IMG/VR virus record: IMGVR_UViG_3300005582_000079
Location: 1 to 27,535 of that record
DNA: 27,535 bases
Source: a virus
Strand: one strand, 5' to 3'
The translations under genes and the position numbers were made by a program. Below, piece by piece: positions 3,433 to 26,253 of the stretch (the stretch's first letter is position 1; every line of letters begins with the position of its first letter). The notes beneath the pieces are model-generated. The model ran no database searches, had not been told where the DNA came from, and was given only the letters and a program-made list of their open reading frames with translations.

Positions 3433-3787
3433 ATCTACAACTACAACTAAAAGAGACCTAGACACCGACATTCGCGTATCCGTTTTGGAAACACAAGTTA
3501 CATCCATTACTAGTAGTCTAGAAAAAATAGAACAACGAATAGATGAGAATTATGCTACATTGCACCATAGAATAAGCGATATGAGAGATGACTTGCATAA
3601 AGACATAGAAGCAAAACATGATAAAGTTATTGAGAAATTAGACGCTCAAAATAAAGCTAGCACGGAACAACATAAAGCAATTGCCGAAAAAATTACCACA
3701 ATCGAAAAATGGCGCTGGATGATAATGGGCGGCGCTATTGTTATTGGTTATGTTTTGGCTCACTTGAAATTAGAAAAATTATTCTAA
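3425..3787 (+). CDS. Coiled-coil protein with C-terminal membrane helix (XhlA-like)
   Basis: A 120-residue protein. Residues 15-90 are a charged heptad-like coiled coil (VLETQVTSITSSLEKIEQRI and following), and residues about 97-113 form one hydrophobic helix (WMIMGGAIVIGYVLAHL) with a basic end. This layout resembles the hemolysin XhlA/holin-associated family of phage lysis-region proteins. The lysis role is a guess: spanins lie 3 kb away and a holin-like gene 10 kb away. Last gene of the first operon; a strong promoter follows 5 bases after its stop. Confidence 0.75.
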   Translation: MVESTTTTKRDLDTDIRVSVLETQVTSITSSLEKIEQRIDENYATLHHRISDMRDDLHKDIEAKHDKVIEKLDAQNKASTEQHKAIAEKITTIEKWRWMIMGGAIVIGYVLAHLKLEKLF

Positions 3788-3791
3788 ATGC

Positions 3792-3820
3792 TTGACATCT
3801 AGTCAAAAGTATATTATAAT
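3792..3820 (+). promoter_or_regulatory. Sigma70-like promoter for primase operon
   Basis: TTGACA at 3792-3797, 17-base spacer and TATAAT at 3815-3820: both hexamers are perfect. The -35 lies in the palindrome TTGAC-ATCTA-GTCAA (3792-3806), which could be an operator. Start of transcription is expected near 3827, giving a leader of about 17 bases before the primase GTG. Confidence 0.85.
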
Positions 3821-3843
3821 TAAGGCTTCGTACAGGAGTCTTT

Positions 3844-4866
3844 GTGTCTTTATTTACTGACCTAAAATATTTAAAATTAATTAGCAATCGTTTACCGCAA
3901 TTCAAACAAAAAAGTGAACGGCTGTATAATTGCAGATGTATCATTTGCGGCGATTCGTCAAAAAAGCAAAATAAAACGCGAGGCTATTTCTATGCCTCCA
4001 AAAATGAGTTATATTACAAATGCCATAATTGTAGTGCATCTATGCACTTTGGTTCATTCTTAAAACAATTAGATGGTTCTCAATATAATCAATATGTGAT
4101 GGAAAGATATAATGAAGGCTTGCCCACAAATAAACCCCATCAAAAGATTGAAGACAAATTTAGAATGAAAGAACCAGTGTTTGAAAAGAAAGAGGAAACT
4201 CTTCTTGATAAAATATTGGATAGACTTGATACCTTACCCGAAGACAATGAAGCAGTTCAATTCTGTTTAAAGCGAAAAATCCCCAGAGAAAAATTTAATA
4301 GACTGTATTTCATTAAGAATATCAAAGACATATCACAACTTAATGAGAAGTATAGAGAGAATGTTAAAGGTGAAGAACCCCGTTTGATTATTCCATTTTA
4401 TAATTTAGATGGTCAATTGGCAGGCGTTACTTGTAGAGCATTGCGGGGTGAGAGTTTAAGATATGTCACTATTAAAATTAAAGAAGATGATTTATTAATT
4501 TTTGGGCTTGCAGACGTAGATAAAACAAAACCGATTTATGTAGTTGAGGGTCCTATTGATAGCTTATTCCTACCAAATTCAATTGCAGTCGGTGGTACTA
4601 CATTTGGTAAACTTGATTCATTATCTTTACCAAAAGATAAATTAATTGTCGCAATGGACAATCAACCTAGGAACAAAGAAGTTTGCAAAATACTTGACAA
4701 GATCATTGAAAGACAATATAATGTAGTTATATGGCCACAGACAATTGACGAAAAAGATATAAATGATATGGTGTTAAATAACCGTGACCCGTTTAAAATC
4801 ATATCTAAAAATATTTTTTCGGGGTTACAGGCAAAAGTTAAATTTACAGAATGGAAGAGGTGCTAA
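3844..4866 (+). CDS. 61: DNA primase, T4 gp61 family
   Basis: Synthesises RNA primers for lagging-strand replication. At 340 residues it matches the length of T4 gp61 (about 340). An N-terminal zinc ribbon is formed by C32/C35 (CIICGDSS) and C60/C63 (YKCHNC). A Toprim core follows: the acidic VVEGPIDSLF block with E235, and AMDNQ with D272. The start is GTG at 3844, supported by AGGAG at 3834-3838, six to ten bases upstream. It is the first gene after the strong promoter at 3792 and ends directly against the next gene (ATG at 4867). Confidence 0.92.
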   Translation: MSLFTDLKYLKLISNRLPQFKQKSERLYNCRCIICGDSSKKQNKTRGYFYASKNELYYKCHNCSASMHFGSFLKQLDGSQYNQYVMERYNEGLPTNKPHQKIEDKFRMKEPVFEKKEETLLDKILDRLDTLPEDNEAVQFCLKRKIPREKFNRLYFIKNIKDISQLNEKYRENVKGEEPRLIIPFYNLDGQLAGVTCRALRGESLRYVTIKIKEDDLLIFGLADVDKTKPIYVVEGPIDSLFLPNSIAVGGTTFGKLDSLSLPKDKLIVAMDNQPRNKEVCKILDKIIERQYNVVIWPQTIDEKDINDMVLNNRDPFKIISKNIFSGLQAKVKFTEWKRC

Positions 4867-7512: not shown

Positions 7513-9312
7513 ATGACTAAAGATGTAGTCCATGGGATCAATGTCGACTATGCTAGAGATAGTTTGTTTGATGAATTGGGAATTAAAAGATTAAAAGAAA
7601 GTTACATGAAGGATGAGGAACAATCCCCGCAAGAGAGATTTGCATTCGTTTCTAAGGCATTCGGCTCCAATAAGGAGCACTCGCAAAGATTATATGAGTA
7701 TTCTTCTAGACATTGGTTGTCTTATTCTACTCCTGTTCTCAGTTTTGGGCGTAGTAAGCGTGGCCTTCCTGTATCATGTTTTTTACCTTATCTCGACGAT
7801 AGTGCTGAAGGTTTGGTCAATACTTTATCGGAAGTAAATTGGTTATCAATGTTAGGAGGCGGTGTTGGACTTGGAATTGGAATTCGTTCGGCTGATGATA
7901 AGTCTGTTGGTGTTATGCCTCATCTTCGCACCTATGACGCATCATCGCTTGCTTATAGACAAGGTAGGACTCGTCGCGGTTCATACGCTGCTTATTTGGA
8001 CATTAGTCACCCTGATATTCTCATATTTTTAGAAATGAGAAAACCAACAGGTGATCCTAATATGCGAGCATTGAACTTGCATCATGGTATTAATGTTACT
8101 GATGAGTTTATGTTATTGGTTGAGAAATGTATGTTAGACAAAGATGCAGATGATACATGGGAATTAAAAGACCCATCATCAGGTGTTGTCAGAGACACAG
8201 TACCTGCTAGAGAATTATGGCAACGTATTATTGAAATGCGTATGCAAACAGGTGAACCATACCTACACTTCATAGATACAAGCAATCGAATGATGCCAGA
8301 GTTTCAAAAGAAATTGGGACTAAGCATTAAACAATCCAATTTGTGCTCTGAAATTATTTTACCTACAGATAAAGATCGTACTGCGGTATGTTGCTTATCT
8401 TCTTTGAACTTGGAGTACTATGATGTCTGGAAAGACGATCCTCTTTTCCTTCGTGATGTTGCAGAAATGCTTGACAATGTTCTTCAGTATTTTATTGATA
8501 ATGCACCTCCCACCATCTCGCGAGCAAAATATTCCGCAATGCGTGAAAGAAGTATCGGCATCGGTGCGCTGGGTTGGCATGCCTACTTGCAGAAAAACAA
8601 TCTCCCATGGGAATCCGCAATGGCAGTCGGAGCCAATCACAAAATTTTCAGCAAAATTAGAAAAGAGCTAAACAATGCAAATCTTGAATTGGGTAAAGAA
8701 AGAGGCGAAGCACCTGATGCGACAGGTACTGGACGCCGCTTCTCTCATATGCTTGCTATTGCTCCAAACGCTTCTTCTTCTATCATTATGGGTAATACTT
8801 CCCCTTCTGTTGAGCCCCTTCGTGCGAACGCATATAGACAGGATACTCTGTCGGGTTCAATGCTCAACAAAAACAAATGGCTAGACGCAATCATTAATGA
8901 AGAAGCAAAGACACGTAAGGAAGATTGGTATAATGAAGTATGGTCTAGCATCATTGCTAATGACGGATCAGTACAGCATTTAGACTGGTTGTCTGATTGG
9001 AACAAAGATGTTTTTAAAACATCTATGGAAATTGACCAGCGTTGGGTTATTCAACACGCTGCCGATAGACAACAATATATAGATCAAGCGCAGTCTATTA
9101 ATTTATTCTTCAGACCAGATTCGAATATTAAGTATTTGCATGCTGTTCATTTCATGGCATGGAAACAAGGATTGAAAACACTTTACTATTGCCGCTCAGA
9201 AAAAATCGGTAAAGCTGATAAAGTATCTAAAAAGATTGAGAGAGAAGTTATTAAAGAGTTGGATATGAAAGCTATAATTGAGGGTGATACCTGTTTAGCG
9301 TGTGAAGGTTAA
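7513..9312 (+). CDS. nrdA: Class Ia ribonucleotide reductase large subunit
   Basis: Reduces ribonucleoside diphosphates to deoxy forms with the NrdB radical subunit. Key residues are in order: Cys89 (PVSCFL), N276-C278-E280 in SNLCSEI (thiyl radical and acid), Cys293 in VCCLSSLNL (redox partner of Cys89), radical-path tyrosines Y558-Y559 (TLYYCRSEKIG), and the C-terminal swinging pair C594/C597 (DTCLACEG). At 599 residues it is much shorter than E. coli or T4 NrdA (about 750-760) and begins near the catalytic barrel, so the N-terminal ATP-cone activity site is missing. Ribosome site GGAG at 7504. Confidence 0.95.
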   Translation: MTKDVVHGINVDYARDSLFDELGIKRLKESYMKDEEQSPQERFAFVSKAFGSNKEHSQRLYEYSSRHWLSYSTPVLSFGRSKRGLPVSCFLPYLDDSAEGLVNTLSEVNWLSMLGGGVGLGIGIRSADDKSVGVMPHLRTYDASSLAYRQGRTRRGSYAAYLDISHPDILIFLEMRKPTGDPNMRALNLHHGINVTDEFMLLVEKCMLDKDADDTWELKDPSSGVVRDTVPARELWQRIIEMRMQTGEPYLHFIDTSNRMMPEFQKKLGLSIKQSNLCSEIILPTDKDRTAVCCLSSLNLEYYDVWKDDPLFLRDVAEMLDNVLQYFIDNAPPTISRAKYSAMRERSIGIGALGWHAYLQKNNLPWESAMAVGANHKIFSKIRKELNNANLELGKERGEAPDATGTGRRFSHMLAIAPNASSSIIMGNTSPSVEPLRANAYRQDTLSGSMLNKNKWLDAIINEEAKTRKEDWYNEVWSSIIANDGSVQHLDWLSDWNKDVFKTSMEIDQRWVIQHAADRQQYIDQAQSINLFFRPDSNIKYLHAVHFMAWKQGLKTLYYCRSEKIGKADKVSKKIEREVIKELDMKAIIEGDTCLACEG

Positions 9313-11918: not shown

Positions 11919-12240
11919 ATGCGGGACACTCCACGGCAAACCTGGGACTTATTGTTCCCGGGCTTGTGCCAATTCAAGGCAATGGACAGAGGAACAGAAA
12001 CAAGTATTCTCTGAAAAGCAAAAAAAATATATGTCCACGGAAGAGTCTGAAGGACACAGATATAAAAAATCTATTCAGACTACGATGTTACACAAAACAG
12101 GACAAATGGGTAACGGGCTTGCCACAGAAAGAATCGAGGACGTAATGACTGATCCTGACGATTACTTTCTAGTACCTCCCAGAAACGAACCAAATAAATT
12201 TATATCAGGTGGAGATATTTGGGAGATTGTCGAACAATAA
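11872..12240 (+). CDS. Zinc-finger protein, nuclease-associated type (122 aa)
   Basis: Residues 12-36 form a four-Cys finger: C14-x2-C17 (TCPKCGTL) and C28-x3-C32 (YCSRACANSR), the type often found at the end of phage HNH/homing nucleases and other DNA-binding proteins. The rest lacks an HNH motif, is basic at 40-75 and ends acidic. It may be a remnant of a mobile nuclease or a DNA-binding protein; no catalytic residues are seen. Starts within the preceding gene and is followed by a 26-base gap. Confidence 0.7.
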   Translation: MPNTKTSITTTKTCPKCGTLHGKPGTYCSRACANSRQWTEEQKQVFSEKQKKYMSTEESEGHRYKKSIQTTMLHKTGQMGNGLATERIEDVMTDPDDYFLVPPRNEPNKFISGGDIWEIVEQ

Positions 12241-12243
12241 ATA
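12236..12243 (+). promoter_or_regulatory. Weak candidate late promoter before GIY-YIG gene
   Basis: AATAAATA at 12236-12243 is one mismatch from TATAAATA and lies 24 bases before the ATG at 12267. It overlaps the preceding stop codon. Low confidence because AT-rich DNA gives such matches by chance. Confidence 0.25.
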
Positions 12244-12266
12244 CTAATTTAATATTGGTATTTAAA

Positions 12267-12668
12267 ATGTGGTTATACAATAATGCAGAGTTAGAAGTAA
12301 TACCTGAAGATGCATATGGATTTGTTTATTTAATTACAAACAATGTGACGGGTCGTAAGTACATAGGCAAAAAGCTATTTTGGTTTCGTAAGACCAAAAT
12401 GGTAAAGGGTAAGAAAAAACGCCTCAAAGTCGAGTCAGACTGGCGTGATTATTGGTCGTCATCTGAAGAGGTTAGAACAGATGTGCAAAACCACGGTGAG
12501 GATAAGTTTATCAGAGAGATACTACACATATGCCCTAACAAAGGACTATGTAATTATTTAGAAGCAAGAGAACAAATGGATAGACGAGTTTTAGAAACAG
12601 AAGATTACTACAATGGGCAAGTACAATGCCGTGTACATAAAACTCATATCAAGAATTTAAAGGTATAA
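12267..12668 (+). CDS. GIY-YIG nuclease-domain protein (133 aa)
   Basis: The GIY-YIG core is read as GFVYLITNNVTGRKYIGKKLF (split pattern of F/Y-V-Y and K-Y-I-G), followed by RKTKMVKGKKKRLKVESDWRD and a helical LCNYLEAREQM. This is the Seg-like small endonuclease family that is frequent in T4-like phages. Start at ATG 12267 (MWLYNNAELEVIPEDAYGFV) is preferred over an upstream in-frame ATG at 12219 that lies inside the preceding gene. Free-standing and single-domain, so it may be a structural or repair nuclease, not a homing enzyme. Confidence 0.85.
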   Translation: MWLYNNAELEVIPEDAYGFVYLITNNVTGRKYIGKKLFWFRKTKMVKGKKKRLKVESDWRDYWSSSEEVRTDVQNHGEDKFIREILHICPNKGLCNYLEAREQMDRRVLETEDYYNGQVQCRVHKTHIKNLKV

Positions 12669-15657: not shown

Positions 15658-15797
15658 CAGACGAAGAAGCTATACAATTATATGATGAAGTAAAATTATA
15701 CTGGGGTGATAAGTTACCTGATCCAGAGGTTTATCCAAAGCAGTTCACTTATTACTTTAAATTGTATCGTTATTATAAAAGCAGGGATATGCTATGA
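15654..15797 (+). CDS. Small hypothetical protein (47 aa)
   Basis: ATG at 15654 inside the phosphoesterase stop (ATGA); stop 15795-15797 overlaps the next ATG. Sequence begins MTDEEAIQLYDEVKLYWGDK and ends VYPKQFTYYFKLYRYYKSRD. Small Tyr-rich proteins of this pattern (PxxFxYYxKLY) recur in aquatic T4-like phages. Function unknown. Confidence 0.75.
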   Translation: MTDEEAIQLYDEVKLYWGDKLPDPEVYPKQFTYYFKLYRYYKSRDML

Positions 15798-16603
15798 AGT
15801 ATATCCTTGCTCTATTGTTACTTGTAACTCAAACAGTATATGCTCAAAAAGGAGCGTATGTTTTATATGATTATGATTTAGATAGATCGCAGGTTGCATA
15901 TAATGTAGATGATGTTAGATCAATTGCTAGTATTACTAAGCTATTCACAGCAATAGTTGTTTTGCGTAGTGGCGTAGAATTAGATGAGAAAGTTAAGGTA
16001 CAGGGTAAAAGTCGAGGTAAATTTTCAAAAGGAATGATGATCTCTCGCAATAATCTTATGCGAGCTATGCTTATTAATTCAGACAATTTAGCCGCAGAAA
16101 CATTAGCTAATACATATCCCGGCGGCTTTGTTAAGTTCATATTGGATGCAAATGAATATGCTAGAGGTATGGGATTAATTAATACTAAGATTGTAGATAG
16201 CTCTGGTCTATTAGAAGGTAATACTAGTACTGCATCAGATCTAATTACATTCTTATGGAAGATTAGAGATAACGAAGTAATTAGAAATATTTCTAAAGAA
16301 CGTAATGATCATATATCTGTACCAAAAGGTAAAAAGAATATTACTGTCAATTTGCGAAACACCAATCCTAGTCTTTTTGTCTTTGATAACATTTTAATAT
16401 CTAAAACAGGATTTACTAACCCCGCAGGGCGTTGTGTCATTATGTTAGTTGAAAAGAATAACTCATTACATGGCATTGTTATACTTGGACAAAAGAATGT
16501 GAAAGACAGATCACAAATTGCAAATAATTTGATTACGGCAAAAGCACTAGAACATAAAAAAGAACAAGTGTTTGAGCCAATAGTGTTTGAATTCCCCATG
16601 TAG
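15794..16603 (+). CDS. S11-family DD-peptidase (PbpG/DacA-like), secreted
   Basis: A 269-residue serine peptidase with a signal peptide MKYILALLLLVTQTVYAQ (cleavage near 18). The three S11 motifs are present in order: SxxK as S46-I-T-K49, SxN as S96-D-N98, and KTG as K204-T-G206. Members act on D-Ala-D-Ala termini or on D-Ala-mDAP crosslinks. Phage-encoded S11 enzymes are unusual. Possible roles are wall remodelling, lysis or exclusion of other phages. It ends the operon that includes the SleB-type hydrolase. Confidence 0.88.
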   Translation: MKYILALLLLVTQTVYAQKGAYVLYDYDLDRSQVAYNVDDVRSIASITKLFTAIVVLRSGVELDEKVKVQGKSRGKFSKGMMISRNNLMRAMLINSDNLAAETLANTYPGGFVKFILDANEYARGMGLINTKIVDSSGLLEGNTSTASDLITFLWKIRDNEVIRNISKERNDHISVPKGKKNITVNLRNTNPSLFVFDNILISKTGFTNPAGRCVIMLVEKNNSLHGIVILGQKNVKDRSQIANNLITAKALEHKKEQVFEPIVFEFPM

Positions 16604-18332: not shown

Positions 18333-18638
18333 ATGATAAGGAAAAAACGATCTGACCGCAAACACATAGTGTATTGCCTTACCAATGTTGTTACTGGCGA
18401 TTTCTACATTGGTATCACCCAGGGCTTTCGAAAGCGAGACCTAAGAGTGCGTGTGCAAAAGCACATTCGTAGAGCATTGACTGAAGGCAAAGCCTGGCTA
18501 CTATGCGACGCTATCAGGTCCTACGGGGCGGAATCATTCGTTGCACAGGAACTTGCCATTGTTCGCGGCAAGGTCGGTGCTCACAATCTAGAGCGTCAAT
18601 TAATTGGTGAACACACCCCGTCGCTTAACTCTCAATAA
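18333..18638 (+). CDS. GIY-YIG endonuclease, probably mobile-type
   Basis: A 101-residue protein from ATG 18333 (MIRKKRSDRKHIVYCLTNVV). GIY-YIG motif in IVYCLTNVVTGDFYIGIT, followed by RKRDLRVRVQKHIRRALTEG and a C-terminal E (LERQLIGEHTP) expected for the metal site. An alternative start at 18294 would lie within the promoter and is rejected. It ends 14 bases into the oppositely directed HNH gene, so the two stop codons overlap convergently. Less AT-rich than the neighbours, which fits transfer. Confidence 0.85.
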   Translation: MIRKKRSDRKHIVYCLTNVVTGDFYIGITQGFRKRDLRVRVQKHIRRALTEGKAWLLCDAIRSYGAESFVAQELAIVRGKVGAHNLERQLIGEHTPSLNSQ

Positions 18639-19008
18639 TCTTTGGTTTTTTTGGCTTAGGCATACCTTTATGAGCATTAGAAATTTTTTGCTTGGTTTCA
18701 TCGGAACGAGTTCGTCCTTTGAGTGACTCTGCAATCTTTTTCTTATGCTCTTCGCTAAGAGTTTTACCTTTAGATTTTTCGTGTGGTTTTAATAATCTTA
18801 TAGCTATCAAACGACATGCAGGATAATCACCTTGTGCATAATGAAGGTCGAAATGTTCTTTTAAAGAAAGTGCTACAAGATTTGTTGGGTCACTATTGGT
18901 ACGATCTCCATCGATATGATGAATGTCGTAAGATCTTCCAAACTCGTCTTTTGGAATCGGGCCGTTATGCTTTACGTAAATTGACCGATACAAGTGATAA
19001 ATATTCAT
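18625..19008 (-). CDS. HNH homing-type endonuclease with NUMOD-like repeats
   Basis: The only gene on the - strand: 127 residues from ATG complementary to 19006-19008, with GGAG ribosome site just upstream. HNH core: SYDIHHIDGDRTNSDPTNLVAL, then LKEHFDLHYAQG. The C-terminal part has a NUMOD3-type repeat (GKTLSEEHKKKIAESLKG and TRSDETKQKISNAHKGM), which gives DNA contacts in homing nucleases. Further upstream in-frame codons (to 19176) are not used. A - strand late promoter lies at 19071-19078. Likely a free-standing selfish nuclease inserted between host genes. Confidence 0.88.
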   Translation of the reverse strand: MNIYHLYRSIYVKHNGPIPKDEFGRSYDIHHIDGDRTNSDPTNLVALSLKEHFDLHYAQGDYPACRLIAIRLLKPHEKSKGKTLSEEHKKKIAESLKGRTRSDETKQKISNAHKGMPKPKKPKIIES

Positions 19009-19070
19009 GCTGATTACTCCTTTACAGTTATTAGAGCGGGTGGATGTTGACGCATCGCGACTCGCACAAA

Positions 19071-19078
19071 TATTTATA
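19071..19078 (-). promoter_or_regulatory. T4-type late promoter for the HNH gene
   Basis: TATTTATA at 19071-19078 on the + strand reads TATAAATA on the - strand, exact T4 late consensus, about 62 bases before the HNH start. It gives the nuclease late expression independent of neighbours. Confidence 0.65.
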
Positions 19079-19134
19079 AGTTTTAATGCCAATGTAGGTA
19101 AAATGTTAGTGCTTACCAACATTGAACACACAAT

Positions 19135-19157
19135 AACCCTTTCTTGTAAAGGGTTTT
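19135..19157 (+). terminator. Hairpin terminator
   Basis: AACCCTTT (19135-19142) pairs with AAAGGGTT (19148-19155) around a 5-base loop, followed by T-rich TTTTGTCTT. Directly before the next promoter. Confidence 0.7.
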
Positions 19158-19160
19158 GTC

Positions 19161-19189
19161 TTGACAAGATATCCAAAATGTGCTATAAT
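19161..19189 (+). promoter_or_regulatory. Sigma70-like promoter, shared-spacer family
   Basis: TTGACA at 19161-19166, 17-base spacer, TATAAT at 19184-19189, followed by AAGACAT. The spacer end TCCAAAATGTGC is nearly identical to those at 23671 and 25741. Confidence 0.88.
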
Positions 19190-25518: not shown

Positions 25519-25662
25519 ATGACTATGACGATTATCTTTTATATTATTTCTTTTATTGCTGGGGTATTATCTCTTATTATCTCTATGCCTGCTATGCTGG
25601 GAGTATCTATTATCTCTACGCTATTAGCGATTATCACAGAGAGAGTATCTAATATGGATTAA
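25519..25662 (+). CDS. Small membrane protein (47 aa)
   Basis: AGGGAG before ATG 25519. MTMTIIFYIISFIAGVLSLI and MLGVSIISTLLAIITERVS form two membrane helices with a polar end. Lies between a terminator and the next promoter. No recognised family. Confidence 0.6.
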   Translation: MTMTIIFYIISFIAGVLSLIISMPAMLGVSIISTLLAIITERVSNMD

Positions 25663-25703
25663 CGATTTACTAGACGGGTCTATTATATTTGCTAGGTCAG
25701 TCT

Positions 25704-25730
25704 AGTAACCCTTCAGGGCGATTGGGTACT
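25704..25730 (+). terminator. Imperfect hairpin before promoter
   Basis: AGTAACCC (25704-25711) pairs with GGGTACT (25724-25730), one bulged A. No good T-run, so termination is uncertain. The same imperfect hairpin (AGTAACCC/GGGTACT) recurs at 26814-26840. Confidence 0.4.
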
Positions 25731-25740
25731 ATAGAAAGAT

Positions 25741-25769
25741 TTGACAAGATGTCCAAAATGTGCTATAAT
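25741..25769 (+). promoter_or_regulatory. Sigma70-like promoter, shared-spacer family
   Basis: TTGACA at 25741-25746, spacer with GTCCAAAATGTGC, TATAAT at 25764-25769, then AAGGCAT. Drives the structured leader at 25775-25938. Confidence 0.9.
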
Positions 25770-25774
25770 AAGGC

Positions 25775-25938
25775 ATGTTAAAGAAAAAAGGTTGTTGAAG
25801 GAAAGAGCATTTAGGCCCGCTTGAGGAACAGCGGTAAAGCCCCAGAGCACCGGGGCACCTAGATGGGACAACGGTTAAATTGAGGTTACTCCAAAACGCG
25901 AGACACGCGAAAGCAAAAAGTCAAGCAAGGAGTATTAA
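25775..25938 (+). ncRNA. Structured leader or small RNA
   Basis: A 160-base untranslated stretch starting at the promoter. Core fold: outer stem TTTAGG (25810-25815) with CCTAGA (25858-25863), enclosing two hairpins, CCGCT/AGCGG (25817-25821, 25830-25834) and GCCCC/GGGGC (25839-25843, 25852-25856), so a three-way junction. A further hairpin CGCG/CGCG (25897-25900, 25906-25909) precedes the AAGGAG site at 25927-25932. Noncoding: the only ATG-led frame at the 5' end is 7 codons (25775). It might be a riboswitch or regulatory RNA; no known class fits. Confidence 0.55.
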
Positions 25939-26253
25939 ATGAGATTGTATCTCAGCCAATCTTTCTATAAAGGACTTGGAATGAAGGAAATCAAAATGTC
26001 AGCATTAAAAAAGTATCTGGATCGCAAAAACGCATACGCTACAATCTTTGGTGCCAAAGCACTTACATTGGATAGTGCAGTTGACCGTCAAAAGATTGCC
26101 GATAGTATTGATTCAGATTTGAGCCCCGAGAATTTGACTTGCGATGGCGAACTGCCCCGTAGTCTTGTTCAAGCCCGTTACAAGGAATTGACTAATTCGG
26201 CACGTGAATTACAAAAGTTGGACCCATCTGTTAAGTTTTACGAATTTGCTTAA
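25939..26253 (+). CDS. Hypothetical protein (104 aa)
   Basis: ATG 25939 behind AAGGAG (25927-25932). MRLYLSQSFYKGLGMKEIKM then helical, charged segments (KALTLDSAVDRQKIADSIDS; VQARYKELTNSARELQKLDP). Downstream of the structured leader, so its translation may be controlled by it. Function unknown. Confidence 0.72.
   Translation: MRLYLSQSFYKGLGMKEIKMSALKKYLDRKNAYATIFGAKALTLDSAVDRQKIADSIDSDLSPENLTCDGELPRSLVQARYKELTNSARELQKLDPSVKFYEFA

Follow-up and report, generated by a model that had tools for sequence, protein, structure and literature searches.

Near the right end of this 27.5-kb viral fragment (the window, meaning the whole stretch of 27,535 nucleotides analysed) a promoter is followed by a leader with no evident gene, raising the question of whether the leader is a functional RNA and, if so, of what kind. 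This leader opens a transcript of a large freshwater bacteriophage and comprises two folded RNA modules, M1 and M2 (Table 1). The preliminary description had placed a promoter at 25741, and a full-consensus sigma-70 element does begin there; since this promoter is present the RNA is probably made, with its start at about 25776. Comparison with relatives shows that a tandem of conserved modules, M1 followed by M2, with structures predicted from sequence, forms the 5' part of the transcription unit.

The genes of the window include those for ribonucleotide reductase, DNA primase, ThyX, dCMP deaminase, a subtilase (881-2473) and homing-type endonucleases. The latter comprise a GIY-YIG (SegE-like) gene at 12219-12668 (+) and an HNH/NUMOD3 gene at 18625-19176 (-), on the opposite strand to most genes. 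Along with the subtilase, this phage genome carries a D-alanyl-D-alanine carboxypeptidase-like protein (15794-16603). L084, the relative whose neighbourhood is most similar, shares an identical promoter with a different gene directly behind it, and is without M1, M2, the leader RNA and gene A. Because of this arrangement M1-M2-gene A looks like a cassette that was set behind an existing promoter, or else was lost from L084. A second copy of the leader in the window was rejected, as the only candidate was a 12-base chance match.

Table 1. Positions of the leader features and of the gene behind them, in window coordinates
Feature	Position	Strand	Basis or remark
Sigma-70 promoter, TTGACA-17 nt-TATAAT, TG before second hexamer	25741..25769	+	12/12 consensus
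RNA module M1	25788..25873	+	Homologues in other contigs, covariation
M1 outer helix	25791-25796/25867-25872	+	Absent from the helices of the preliminary description
M1 three-way junction closing helix	25808-25815/25858-25865	+	Encloses 25817-25834 and 25839-25856
M1 hairpin 1	25817-25821/25830-25834	+	Loop UGAGGAAC
M1 hairpin 2	25839-25843/25852-25856	+	
RNA module M2, second three-way junction	25884..25957	+	21 distinct sequences aligned, covariation
M2 P1	25884-25886/25955-25957	+	
M2 P2	25887-25892/25929-25934	+	
M2 inner helices	25898-25899/25925-25926 and 25902-25904/25920-25922	+	
M2 GNRA hairpin	25907-25914	+	
M2 junction UUAAA	25935-25939	+	
M2 P3 hairpin	25940-25954	+	
ATG called gene start by the preliminary description	25939..25941	+	Within M2 junction/P3 hairpin; probably not a start codon
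Probable ribosome site AAGGA of gene A	25984..25988	+	Sequence; relatives have a site at the same place
Gene A, 85 aa, presumed passenger 3' of leader RNA	25996..26253	+	154 viral relatives

Two conserved folds in the leader

The preliminary description took 25775-25938 to be a structured non-coding leader of raised GC content. The GC content of the junction is indeed 0.57 against 0.37 for the window, a value reached by 0.8% of equal-sized stretches, and the minimum-energy fold includes the three-way junction that had been described. Folding energy by itself is weak evidence for structure, with z of -1.7 for 25775-25945 (12 of 200 shuffles fold equally well), -2.2 for 25776-25995 and -3.3 for the opposite strand. 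Conservation and covariation decide over this modest energy and lead us to regard the structure as real: homologues from uncultured viral contigs keep both the M1 and the M2 fold through compensatory changes, the evidence to which the preliminary description had looked. The leader is also non-coding, in that no frame is conserved over approximately 25776-25995 in the window and length differences between homologues break any open frame across it, while the proposed end at 25938 falls, M2 running to 25957. Chance folding of a GC-rich spacer that holds no functional RNA would accord with an energy only modestly better than that of shuffles. Against it, homologues of the modules keep their pairing through compensatory changes in surroundings that are unrelated, and models built independently detect each other's elements (see below); barring an alignment artefact in the counts, the covariation already refutes it, and we consider it extremely improbable.

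M1 is the three-way junction with two enclosed hairpins that had been recognised from the window, here extended by an outer helix. Homologues occur in L171, L259, L266/L271, L276, L277, L279/L281 and L280, and the 8 distinct sequences have in common the outer helix, the three-way junction and a conserved GGAAC loop. Across them 98.9% of pair cells are paired, with 4 pairs (6 cells) double-changed so that every one of the four helices has one such pair; these double-change values are matched by 3-5 of 500 shuffles. The M1 fold is therefore supported by modest covariation, less strongly than that of M2. The module was also recovered independently in L171 (98 bits), which lay outside the training set. 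A separate three-way-junction RNA 3' of M2 in L246 (2942-3005) and L258 (664-728) has the CCGCUGAGGAACAGUGG hairpin in common with M1 and is otherwise unlike it; considered as a possible M1 homologue, it scores only 14 and 11 bits.

M2 had been half seen, in that a fold near the gene was noted, and this stands; the CGCG hairpin proposed near the ribosome site (CGCGAGACACGCG) and an end before 25939 do not. The CGCG hairpin was rejected, since it can form in 1 of the 21 M2 sequences, and the conserved fold at its site consists of GC/GC, GAC/GTC and a GC-GAAA-GC tetraloop hairpin. In the alignment of 21 distinct sequences (24 pairs) 98.3% of pair cells are paired, versus 18-38% for slid versions, and 9 pairs are double-changed in 41 cells against a shuffled mean of 9.8, a count reached by 0 of 500 shuffles. 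P2 varies as TACTCC/GGAGTA, TGTTCC/GGAACA, TCGTTC/GAACGA and TGCTCC/GGAGCA, and the inner helix as GAC/GTC and GCC/GGC. The first M2-like string, in L067, reads GGTTACTCC..AACGC ... GGAGTATTAAAT-hairpin-AGCC, with a hairpin that differs from that of the window by compensatory changes. Extended forms of M2 in L067, L188, L192, L197 and L226 were independently recovered at 54-64 bits, outside the training sets. In L067 (231-343) and similar ones a second ATTAAA-hairpin-AGCC unit is nested within the extended form, as though a copy of the junction had been inserted into the junction.

A related element, B, is 100% paired across 12 sequences, with 3 pairs double-changed. Model R1, built from M2, picks up element B at numerous loci (E 0.001-0.025 in 477 kb), and model R3, built from B only, recovers the M2 of the window (25878-25964, 35.6 bits, E 1.4e-6 in 273 kb) along with eleven further M2 copies at E 0.001 or better; this reciprocal detection places B and M2 in one wider family. 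Common to both are a GG-/-CC closing helix, P2, a GNRA-type hairpin followed by AAAAA, and the 3' hairpin of the three-way junction, and the family as a whole displays the three-way junction with covarying P2 and P3, the inner helix and the GNRA-type hairpin. Between B or M2 and the next promoter some contigs have larger, apparently structured RNAs without an evident gene that start GGTTACC... (L175 approximately 3890-4130, L174 approximately 1650-1900, L183 approximately 7610-7870, and L275 after 3542 on the minus strand); those in L175, L183 and L275 have no Rfam match.

A search of Rfam had been proposed as a route to a known family, and none matched the leader. The Rfam 15 covariance models gave 0 matches in the window at the gathering score, permissive searches of 25660-26000 returned nothing credible up to E 10, and relatives yielded tRNA only. 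Nucleotide searches of 50,697 phage records with the leaders of the window, L246 and L259 gave only short matches in the promoter region and hence neither an isolate nor a host, and two exact patterns had no match in GTDB genome contigs. By comparison, then, M1 and M2 are shown to belong to phage RNA families, as defined by their sequences, that are absent from Rfam.

By setting, the nearest analogues are RNAs C and D of phage T4 (species 1 and 2), small stable RNAs annotated in the phage tRNA cluster, which M1 and M2 resemble where they lie in tRNA arrays. Homology was rejected, the best score against the M1/M2 models being 9.9 bits with filters off. To our knowledge T4 RNAs C and D have no known function, and we know of no case in which they serve as an mRNA leader. 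GOLLD and ROOL are structured phage RNAs of unknown function that are often near tRNA islands; both assemble into RNA nanocages, and lengths above 800 nt are common for GOLLD (PMC12286853). M1 and M2 have the phage tRNA-island setting in common with them but are 75-90 nt long and match no Rfam model. The manA and wcaG motifs, leader-type structured RNAs in phages and marine metagenomes that are associated with metabolism genes (PMC2864571), are alike in their leader-type position, and the window matches neither in Rfam.

The gene behind the leader

The gene start proposed at 25939 is an ATG inside M2. The frame from this ATG is 3-30 codons long in 13 of the 15 M2 loci examined, and extended M2 forms read ATTAAATC at the site. 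Nearly all of the gene A relatives that were read have a promoter and a leader of approximately 30 nt directly before the codon equivalent to ATG 25996, and in tblastn searches with the 85-aa form the alignment begins at residue 1 in those relatives that were checked, mostly leader loci; 25939 is therefore not a conserved start, and relatives start at the codon equivalent to 25996. In IMG/VR at least 154 viral sequences are related to gene A, two of them in one 524-kb contig (L024, L030); the gene belongs to no Pfam or PHROG family and has no match in the phage record collection.

Distribution and neighbours of the modules

The modules are present in dozens of other uncultured phages, behind strong promoters and before unrelated genes or tRNA clusters. 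Exact pattern scans of IMG/VR catch close members only and their counts are thus lower bounds: M1 matches in nine contigs, eight of them real (the ninth, L278, lacks M1 and matched by chance), window-like M2 in more than 20, element B in 17, and extended M2 in L067/L167/L172/L177, L188, L192, L197 and L226. M1 without M2 and M2 without M1 both occur. In 32 viral contigs (up to 171 kb) M1 never occurs more than once, and a second M2 is seen in L246 alone, where the two stand in tandem; each of 11 contigs has one element B. As contigs are fragments, a phage may carry more copies than the one counted per contig.

Wherever an adjoining promoter was recognised the module starts 17-32 nt past the -10 box, and what follows varies. 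Gene A lies 3' of the module in the window, L254 and L265 and after B in L168, a B58 homologue in L279 and L281, other genes in L259, L276, L280, L188 and L197, and tRNAs in L277, L268, L266/L271, L226 and L067. In the window, L259, L276, L280, L254, L265 and L279/L281 a ribosome site follows 12-26 nt after the module. In L171, M1 has its own promoter and a new promoter comes 31 nt further on, and in L266/L271 the module sits between tRNAs, behind tRNA-Asp, without an adjacent promoter. One viral contig with tRNAs, L192, also has an ARAGORN tmRNA call (3588-3991, tag ANASNDEIFALAA).

An rrn-boxA-like sequence, GTTC[TGA]TTAA, lies 3' of the module at 3-5 or approximately 163 nt in 13 of 13 tRNA-array loci tabulated, several of which are near-identical contigs and hence fewer independent cases. 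The background rate is approximately 0.006 per 165 nt, and the mRNA-leader loci all lack the sequence. It is absent behind the module in L067 and L226 (single tRNA, extended M2) and in the array copies of L271 and L192. Sites of this kind (GTTC[TGA]TTAAAAATT) head tRNA arrays, directly behind the M1/M2 modules, in L247 (744), L256 (3093), L274 (7072), L277 (10074), L268 (104), L246 (2849) and others. These sequences suggest Nus-factor antitermination of phage tRNA operons and perhaps hint at a betaproteobacterial host.

What the modules may do

We favour, at an even chance, the reading that M1 and M2 form a stable, probably processed phage RNA that acts in trans, with the downstream gene as a passenger. 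Host RNA polymerase would start at the consensus promoter and transcribe M1-M2 together with gene A; M1 and M2 would fold as soon as made, nuclease cleavage in the linkers would separate them from the mRNA, and they would persist as stable RNA acting on a host or phage component. In other phages the modules would be transcribed with tRNA arrays and cut free along with the tRNAs, and the passenger gene would differ from phage to phage. Processing and trans action are suggested by the genomic context; in the window no clear terminator or processing site was seen 3' of M1/M2. Unrelated neighbours, the tRNA arrays, the double promoter of L171 and the gene-like dosage point to an RNA gene and away from a switch dedicated to one gene. 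The preliminary description gave three options, a riboswitch, a translation-control leader and a stand-alone small RNA; the best fit is the last of them, transcribed jointly with the gene.

A cis-acting leader would equally be expected to lie close to the promoter, as the modules do in nearly all cases, and together with the boxA neighbours this position means that a cis role in transcription may still apply. In the main rival, which we think possible and on balance unlikely, nascent M1/M2 RNA, in the manner of HK022 put or lambda nut RNA, binds elongating host RNA polymerase or Nus factors and so enables polymerase to withstand pausing or termination. The put RNA of HK022 binds polymerase and suppresses pausing and termination (PMC9378689), and like M1 and M2 is a structured phage RNA at a transcript start, from which they differ in being three-way junctions present once per contig. 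The distance of 17-32 nt from the -10 box in nearly all non-array loci is that of a promoter-proximal RNA in cis, M1, M2 and B occupy the same place, downstream content is arbitrary, and the boxA-like site is confined to the tabulated tRNA-array loci. However, many strong promoters in these phages lack a module while each contig has one copy, the M1 of L171 is followed so soon by a fresh promoter, the L266/L271 copy is inside a tRNA array, and the boxA sites could serve the tRNA arrays on their own.

Quite unlikely, in our estimate, is a 5' leader that protects or regulates the downstream mRNA as a stability cap or through translation control by its fold. The module is the 5' untranslated region at all loci listed above with a following ribosome site, but downstream genes are unrelated, and at roughly half of the loci tRNAs or other RNAs take the place of a gene. 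Translation control through a hidden ribosome site is likewise unsupported: sequestration by the Shine-Dalgarno-like GGAGT of M2 was rejected because relatives read GAACG, GAAAC or GGAAC, and the ribosome site of gene A itself, AAGGA, is outside the M2 fold. A metabolite riboswitch for gene A is very improbable. It would suit such a switch that the three-way junctions have unpaired, conserved bases and lie immediately upstream of a gene, yet no gene or pathway is consistently downstream: the modules precede gene A, a B58 homologue, unrelated genes, tRNA arrays and, in L171, a promoter, no gene there belonging to the module. None of the riboswitch families in Rfam matches, and no conserved alternative terminator or sequestration hairpin is present.

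As 75-90 nt, modular and promoter-adjacent elements, M1 and M2 allow cis and trans action to be distinguished by simple reporters and probing. A bolder proposal, and a rather unlikely one, is that they are RNA-only antitermination modules, placeable behind a promoter, that act directly on host RNA polymerase and Nus factors; if so, with an rrn-like boxA they would drive tRNA arrays and selected early genes in the manner of host rRNA operons. Recognising the modules moves the start of a gene to its proper place and accounts for a type of leader that recurs among the genomes of uncultured phages. As two small families of RNA, unmatched in Rfam and strongly conserved in structure across uncultured aquatic phages, they offer a compact target for learning which uses phages make of non-coding RNA other than tRNAs, the same question that T4 RNAs C and D, GOLLD and ROOL pose.
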